47,134 nucleotides of DNA from contig JACQFS010000033.1 in NCBI GenBank assembly GCA_016199935.1, positions 1 through 47,134 on the forward strand, read 5' to 3'. Below the pieces are notes generated by a model, which was not told the DNA's origin, did not search any database, and saw nothing but the letters and a program-made list of their open reading frames with translations. The position numbers were made by a program, and so were the translations under genes. Source of the stretch: Verrucomicrobiota bacterium. GTDB lineage: Bacteria > Verrucomicrobiota > Verrucomicrobiia > Limisphaerales > JACQFS01. Positions 8,837-10,300 of the stretch are shown in pieces (within the stretch, counting starts at the first letter, position 1; the number at the start of each line of letters is the position of its first letter).

Positions 8837-9841
8837 ATGTTCCGGCTGCTCACGATTTTTTTGCTCCTCGCCGCGTCCGCTCTCGCGGCGCACGCGCAGA
8901 GTCCCCTGAGCAAACTCCCCCACGTCGAACTCTACGGCCACACCTACGTCCCGCTCGCCGACTGGGCCGTGGCCAACGGCCTCAAGGCCGCGTGGACCCA
9001 GAAGGACAAGGTCGCCATCGTCACCAACCGCACCCTGCGCCTCCAGTTCGAGGCCGACTCGCGCAAGGCCTCCATTGACCGCATCGGCATCTACCTCAGC
9101 GTCCCCTTTGCCGTGCGCGCCGGCACGCCCTACATCTCCGTGCAGGACCTCACCACCACCATCCAGCCGGTTTTGTTTCCGGTGAAAAATTCGCCGGGCC
9201 AGCGCGTGCGCACCATCTGCCTCGACCCCGGCCACGGCGGCAAGGACACCGGCAACATCGCCGGCAGCGCGCAGGAGAAACGCTACACCCTCCAACTCGC
9301 CCTCGAAGTGAAGACGCTCCTGAAAGAAGCCGGCCTCAAAGTCGTGCTCACGCGCAACGACGACCGCTTCATCGAACTCGGCGACCGCGACACCATCGCG
9401 CGGAAAAACGGCGCGGACCTTTTCGTGAGCCTCCACTTCAACGGCCAGGCCGGCGGCAACGACGGCCGCGGCGCCGAGTCCTACTGCCTGACCCCGGCCA
9501 AGGCCAGCTCCACCAACGCCCGCGGCGAGGGCGCCGAGAACGGCAACTTTCCCGGCAACAAGTTCAACGAGAAAAACGTCCTGCTCGCCTACCAGATTCA
9601 CAAGCGGCTCGAACGCGACCTCGGCCTCGAGGACCGCGGGGTGCGCCGCGCGCGCTTCGCCGTGTTGCGCACGGCCGAGATGCCGGCGGTGCTCATCGAG
9701 GGCGGTTTCCTTTCCAATCCCGACGAGCGCCGGCGCATCACCGACGCCGGGCAGCTCCGGCAGATGGCGCGCGCGATTGTGGATGGCCTCCTGGCCTACA
9801 AGCGCCTCGTGGAGCGCGCGGAGATTCGCGCGGCGCAGTGA
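8837..9841 (+). CDS. N-acetylmuramoyl-L-alanine amidase (Amidase_3 type)
   Basis: ICLDPGHGGKDTGNIAGSAQEKRYTLQLALEVKTLL, VVLTRNDDRFIELGDRDTIARKNGADLFVSLHFN, PAVLIEGGFLSNPDERRRI. Confidence 0.9.
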   Translation: MFRLLTIFLLLAASALAAHAQSPLSKLPHVELYGHTYVPLADWAVANGLKAAWTQKDKVAIVTNRTLRLQFEADSRKASIDRIGIYLSVPFAVRAGTPYISVQDLTTTIQPVLFPVKNSPGQRVRTICLDPGHGGKDTGNIAGSAQEKRYTLQLALEVKTLLKEAGLKVVLTRNDDRFIELGDRDTIARKNGADLFVSLHFNGQAGGNDGRGAESYCLTPAKASSTNARGEGAENGNFPGNKFNEKNVLLAYQIHKRLERDLGLEDRGVRRARFAVLRTAEMPAVLIEGGFLSNPDERRRITDAGQLRQMARAIVDGLLAYKRLVERAEIRAAQ

Positions 9842-9853
9842 GGCGGTCTGTTT

Positions 9854-10010
<157 letters not shown>

Positions 10011-10050
10011 GAATTCAGATGCTCACGACGATGCGGCGGTGAAGGAGAAG

Positions 10051-10133
10051 GTAGGGCGCGGTGTCCTCACCGCGCCGCGGATAACCCAACGCGTCCGGCC
10101 GCATCGCGGCGCGCTGAGGACAGCGCGCCCTAC
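10051..10133. repeat. Inverted-repeat doublet hairpin element
   Basis: Arms 10051-10079 and 10105-10133 (29 nt, 27/29 complementary); each arm contains its own 8-bp stem with 4-nt loop (gcgcggtg-tcct-caccgcgc; gcgcgctg-agga-cagcgcgc). Confidence 0.9.
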
Positions 10134-10300
10134 CGCGTGCGGTTTTTGCCGGTTTAATATTTTCCCGGTCCGCCCCGCTGGAGACGGGGGAAACCGCCTC
10201 GACAGGTCCATCTGCGGGAGTAGGCTGCCGCCGTGACCTACCCAATGCCCGCTTTGCTAGACCGCAATCTGCGGTCGAATACCTGTTAGGCCGCTTTACC

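Follow-up and report, generated by a model that had tools for sequence, protein, structure and literature searches.

Doublets of two unlike REPs are known from E. coli, where they are called BIMEs. Inverted pairs of REPs were described in Pseudomonas as REPINs by Bertels and Rainey (2011; PMC3116915), who regarded singlets as their remnants and reported that the hairpin of the doublet carries compensatory changes. A 2013 survey (PMC3733652) describes REPs tagged with GTAG, reports their occurrence in Verrucomicrobia and notes alternative complementary residues in their stems. The HUH tyrosine transposase TnpA-REP, or RAYT, is encoded in REPtrons, in which the gene is flanked by its own REPs (PMC8266576; structure 4er8), and cleavage by TnpA-REP in vitro requires the GTAG, the loop and an unbroken stem (PMC8266576).

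The element analyzed here lies in a stretch of 47,134 nucleotides from a Verrucomicrobiota genome (the whole stretch is referred to as the window), and it is very probably a REPIN, that is, two head-to-head GTAG-tagged REP hairpins recognized and dispersed as single-stranded DNA by a RAYT (Table 1). With the REPINs of PMC3116915 it shares the inverted REP pair, the spacer of set length, a whole that can fold, singlets that look like remnants and compensatory hairpin changes, but those REPINs were found in Pseudomonas, whereas here the host belongs to Verrucomicrobiota and the arms are systematically non-identical. The GTAG, a stem of 6 to 9 bp, a short loop, inverted dimers, heterodimers and alternative complementary residues are shared with the GTAG super-family (including the Opitutus terrae families) as presented in PMC3733652, a likeness at the level of description. 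Two unlike REPs are also paired in the E. coli BIMEs, although the arms of these (GTAG-3 dimers in the survey) differ in loop length, while the window arms keep the same loop and differ in a compensated swap. The window REPIN therefore belongs to a known type; what goes beyond PMC3116915, PMC8266576 and the accessible part of PMC3733652 is that the difference between the arms sits at another base pair in related genomes.

Table 1. Coordinates of the doublet, its parts and the upstream gene in the window, and of one interrupted copy elsewhere in the host genome.
Feature	Position	Strand	Remarks
N-acetylmuramoyl-L-alanine amidase gene (Amidase_3)	8837..9841	+	upstream of the doublet
Complete REP doublet (REPIN), heterodimer, 83 bp	10051..10133	.	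layout common to 15 doublets of the host genome
Left REP arm, "G" type, GTAGGGCGCGGTGTCCTCACCGCGCC	10051..10076	+	GTAG + GGCGCGGTG-TCCT-CACCGCGCC
GTAG tag of left arm, unpaired	10051..10054	+	conserved G at 10050; GTAG super-family (PMC3733652)
Left arm position 11 = G	10061	+	partner 10070; covarying pair 11-20
Left arm position 20 = C	10070	+	partner 10061; covarying pair 11-20
Spacer, 31 nt	10077..10107	.	complementary ends GCG/CGC
Right REP arm, "C" type, GTAGGGCGCGCTGTCCTCAGCGCGCC	10108..10133	-	GTAG + GGCGCGCTG-TCCT-CAGCGCGCC
Right arm position 20 = G (on -)	10114	-	partner 10123; covarying pair 11-20
Right arm position 11 = C (on -)	10123	-	partner 10114; covarying pair 11-20
GTAG tag of right arm (CTAC on +)	10130..10133	-	conserved C at 10134
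Nested insertion in a window-type doublet	L029 1500-1709 (G000:C167:11829-12038)		

Each 26-nt arm consists of the unpaired GTAG followed by a 9-bp stem. As the preliminary description had stated, the arms differ at only two positions, 11 (G/C) and 20 (C/G), which are each other's partners in the hairpin with its TCCT loop; the stem is one pair longer than the 8 bp given, since position 5 also pairs with position 26. The inverted repeat is slightly longer than the arms (30 nt, 93%), and a G stands just outside the GTAG in 27/28 arm ends of the doublets in the host genome. The center of the spacer (CCCAACGCGTCCGG, 10085-10098) is near-palindromic and common to other copies. No arm match appeared in 100 shuffles of the window. 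Adjoining the doublet, at 9847-10019, there are arrays of an 8-bp unit (GCGCAAAG) that form an inverted pair with 41-nt arms (85% complementary).

The doublet is extragenic, 209 bp past the amidase stop, a site compatible with a hairpin acting as RNA, either as a terminator or as an mRNA stabilizer 3' of the amidase gene, with the RNA function keeping the stem; RNA roles of REPs have been proposed (abstract of PMC3733652). However, a T run is absent after most copies (longest run of ≤3 in 25/28 flanks), the window had no match to Rfam families and the double changes described below are mainly non-wobble. Moreover, the dispersal of the copies and their conserved GTAG, which is not part of the stem, suggest recognition at the DNA level, and we regard an RNA role as very improbable.

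The host genome contains about 45 arms, mostly in doublets of 82 to 86 bp. Its 5.03 Mb were searched with a pattern that left seven stem pairs free and specified GTRGG, the closing G-C pair, the loop and the final C. This search gave 42 arms (reversed-pattern control, 0), two of which (on C115 and C131) are probably chance matches, and several more degenerate arms surround this set. Tags were mostly GTAG and in some copies GTGG, the pattern demanding GTRG, and relaxed scans agreed. Among the 15 close doublets, 12 measured 82 to 85 bp, and the spacers have complementary GCG/CGC ends and share a near-palindromic center (CCGRACGCGTYCGG). Most singlets retain the spacer's first half, and a degenerate second arm is left in two singlets. 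Another doublet, on C167, is interrupted within its spacer by a whole REPIN-like element belonging to the host's other GTAG family (GGCCGACCC-GCC type). A plasmid search for the repeat gave no match.

Covariation was evaluated on 41 arms of the host genome chosen by their left half only, so that pairing was not forced. Pair 11-20 was C-G in 21 of them, G-C in 16 and T-A in 3, with a single broken pair (C-C). For the seven free pairs, the distinct arms of this genome had 118 Watson-Crick cells out of 126, compared to 87.2 with shuffled partners, a count reached by 0/5,000 shuffles, and 20 of the 26 departures on the 5' side were compensated. Along similar lines, the pooled distinct arms of the host and its relatives had 444/539 Watson-Crick cells versus 326.9 when shuffled. 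In a set of 35 distinct arms, hand-picked from the host genome and from relatives including G036, we counted 47 double-change cells, versus 14.7 in shuffles and ≤12 in slid registers. Shuffling leaves shared descent in, yet the slid-register controls, which retain descent, scored far lower. The double changes, mainly among G-C, C-G and T-A and less so with wobble pairs, affected 7/9 stem pairs, and besides 11-20 these included 7-24, 8-23, 9-22, 10-21 and 12-19.

Thus, in the covariation test suggested in the preliminary description, run here on arm alignments with shuffles and slid registers, pair 11-20 covaries, and the uncorrelated changes at positions 11 and 20 that we looked for were not found, the pair being intact in 40/41 arms of the host genome and occurring as three pair types. 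Since, in addition, six further stem pairs carry double changes, these results support the proposal that the single-arm hairpin is the structure under selection. Each arm is an independently maintained hairpin with an invariant TCCT loop and GTAG, and this hairpin is the conserved and probably also the recognized structure.

Compensation could also arise by mutation instead of selection, if template switching within the hairpin at replication (quasipalindrome correction) used one half of the stem as the template for the other half. Most copies do have perfect stems, and a G-C to C-G swap requires either two simultaneous changes or passage through a broken pair, and broken pairs are rare (the one C-C arm in 41). 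Nevertheless, template switching should equalize the two arms of a doublet, which in the window copy form a 93% inverted repeat over 30 nt, yet identical arms were found in only 2/15 doublets of the host and 0/15 of G036. Uncompensated changes in one arm of an orthologous doublet (see below) and an unrepaired T-C at pair 8-23 in many G035 copies also argue against this mechanism, which we consider unlikely.

The preliminary description had also offered the single arm as the unit being copied, and this part is unsupported, given the narrow range of doublet lengths, the structured spacer, the RAYT genes of relatives flanked by whole doublets and the fact that most singlets resemble truncated doublets. 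The whole doublet is the more likely copied unit because its length is fixed, its spacer is structured and, in relatives, the orientation of the spacer is tied to the arm type. There, the spacer is asymmetric and has a constant orientation with respect to the arm whose pair 9-22 is C-G (18 doublets; 0/5,000 random orientations were as good); within the host, the link between spacer orientation and arm type was not significant (P = 0.28). We compared two congeneric species, G036 and G080. One doublet is present in both, and one of its arms in G080 has uncompensated changes; at a second doublet site, G080 has a singlet; and a third doublet is absent in G080, where another GTAG-tagged inverted repeat is in place (GTAGCCGCCGACGTGAGGAGGCGG; L285, G080:C88, ca. 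360-450). One further orthologous site (L141) was left out due to poor alignment. The three sites are suggestive of whole-doublet copying followed by decay. Arm decay without compensation at one orthologous site implies that selection, if any, acts on copying and not on resident copies.

RAYTs of this class were missed by Pfam Y1_Tnp alone and were recovered with NCBIfam NF047646. In G184, a RAYT gene (L268 1953-2402) is located between window-type doublets with GTAGGGCGCGCTG-TCCC arms, the upstream one being 81 bp long with a TCCT partner arm. The only structure match of its product was TnpA-REP (4er8; E value of 2.4e-8), and the PDHLH and Tyr motifs are kept. The RAYTs of G049 (L257) and G111 (L266), 58 and 60% identical to that of G184, are found between doublets of the stem variants GTAGGGCTGGCTG-TCCT, the flanking stems including GGCTGGCTG with loop TCCT. 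These three loci resemble the described REPtrons; the host differs in that no RAYT flanked by the window arm type was found in its assembly of 260 contigs. Genes flanked by repeats are likely to fall into gaps of such an assembly, so that a cognate RAYT, if the host has one, may be missing from these contigs. Two other candidates were discarded: a RAYT-like gene of L201, in a metagenome-assembled genome (MAG) labeled Oscillospiraceae, that lies some 500 bp away from an arm but does not have doublets of the window arm on both sides, and a transposase 744 bp from a doublet on C15 of G036, which is IS200-like and probably there by chance.

The host does contain other RAYT genes. Two of them, L255 1974-2793 (G000:C97) and L256 1-500 (G000:C172), one cut by a contig end, adjoin GGACGASCC-GCC doublets, a family with 23 arms at ≤1 mismatch in this genome. 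A third, L046 3499-4504 (G000:C16), is flanked by GCAGATT REPs (GTAGCGCAGATTG...), another GTAG family. Together with the window type, at least three REP families thus coexist in one genome. One of the first two RAYTs, on C97 or C172, might mobilize the window-type doublets in trans in place of a lost or unassembled cognate. Both are of the same class as the G184 RAYT (45 and 44% identical, respectively), and the failure to find a window-type REPtron in the assembly would fit. Still, we find this rather unlikely, as the loops are unlike (GCC in the GGACGASCC REP versus TCCT in the window arm), the loop is decisive for the Stenotrophomonas TnpA-REP (PMC8266576) and the RAYTs flanked by TCCT-loop REPs in relatives form a closer set (58 to 60% identical). 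In the preferred reading, the RAYT would recognize each arm by its GTAG, its loop and an intact stem and would copy the whole doublet. In that case, only doublets with both arms folding would be copied, so that arms with compensated stems would be retained, and the G/C difference between the window arms at pair 11-20 would be one instance of this filtering.

Outside the host order, the arm was present in only 1/288 genomes of a phylum sample, while within the order several families had ten or more arms. Loci matching the arm exactly came mostly from records titled Verrucomicrobia, Limisphaerales and Pedosphaera. The identical 26-nt G-type arm, and always this type, also occurred in lower-G+C MAGs labeled Oscillospiraceae (L109, L120, L128, L183, L191, L196, L201, L206 and L208), which may reflect cross-phylum transfer, convergence or mislabeling, MAG labels not being always reliable. 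An exact doublet-wide pattern had no match in the species collection. At G051:C36:87-1161, stem-variant arms (GGCGAGTTG) are arranged head to tail, mostly with a 138-bp period.

The difference between the two arms follows a pattern. Exactly one arm had a G at position 11 in 11/12 host doublets of canonical length (P = 0.01 by re-pairing), and in relatives, G036 among them, the arms differed mainly at pair 9-22. The deficit of identical arms had a P value of 0.004 in G036 and, in the host, was not significant when whole arms were re-paired (P = 0.40). In the species collection, the arms differed by one or more fully compensated swaps in 25/28 doublets around exact arms (some of them G036 again), and the host's GGACGASCC-GCC REPs showed a C/G stem swap of like kind. 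DNA folding of the window doublet gave −38.7 kcal/mol for one long hairpin and −29.9 kcal/mol for two arm hairpins; with identical arms, the long form reached −46.0 to −46.6 kcal/mol, and the two-arm form was about unchanged. The earlier idea that each stem is preserved at the cost of arm-to-arm pairing thus stands in that ca. 7.6 kcal/mol are lost with the arm hairpins unaffected, but the pairing is weakened and not abolished, the long hairpin remaining the predicted minimum by 8.8 kcal/mol despite the swap.

The arms probably differ because a less perfect long palindrome better survives replication and palindrome-cutting enzymes. In PMC3733652, the excess of heterodimers among GTAG repeats was called unexplained, and protection from SbcCD was suggested. 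We tentatively propose that non-identity may be maintained, each REPIN population holding at least one compensated swap between left and right arm, at a stem position that varies by lineage (pair 11-20 in the host, 9-22 in relatives), as a selected balance between RAYT recognition and the removal of long perfect palindromes, with perfect folding of each arm but not of the full palindrome. The window doublet makes a clean case in which the recognized unit, one arm, is separable by base-pair evidence from the copied unit, the doublet, and, given that the position of the swap varies by lineage, the idea of protection from SbcCD would be directly testable with defined arms two bases apart.
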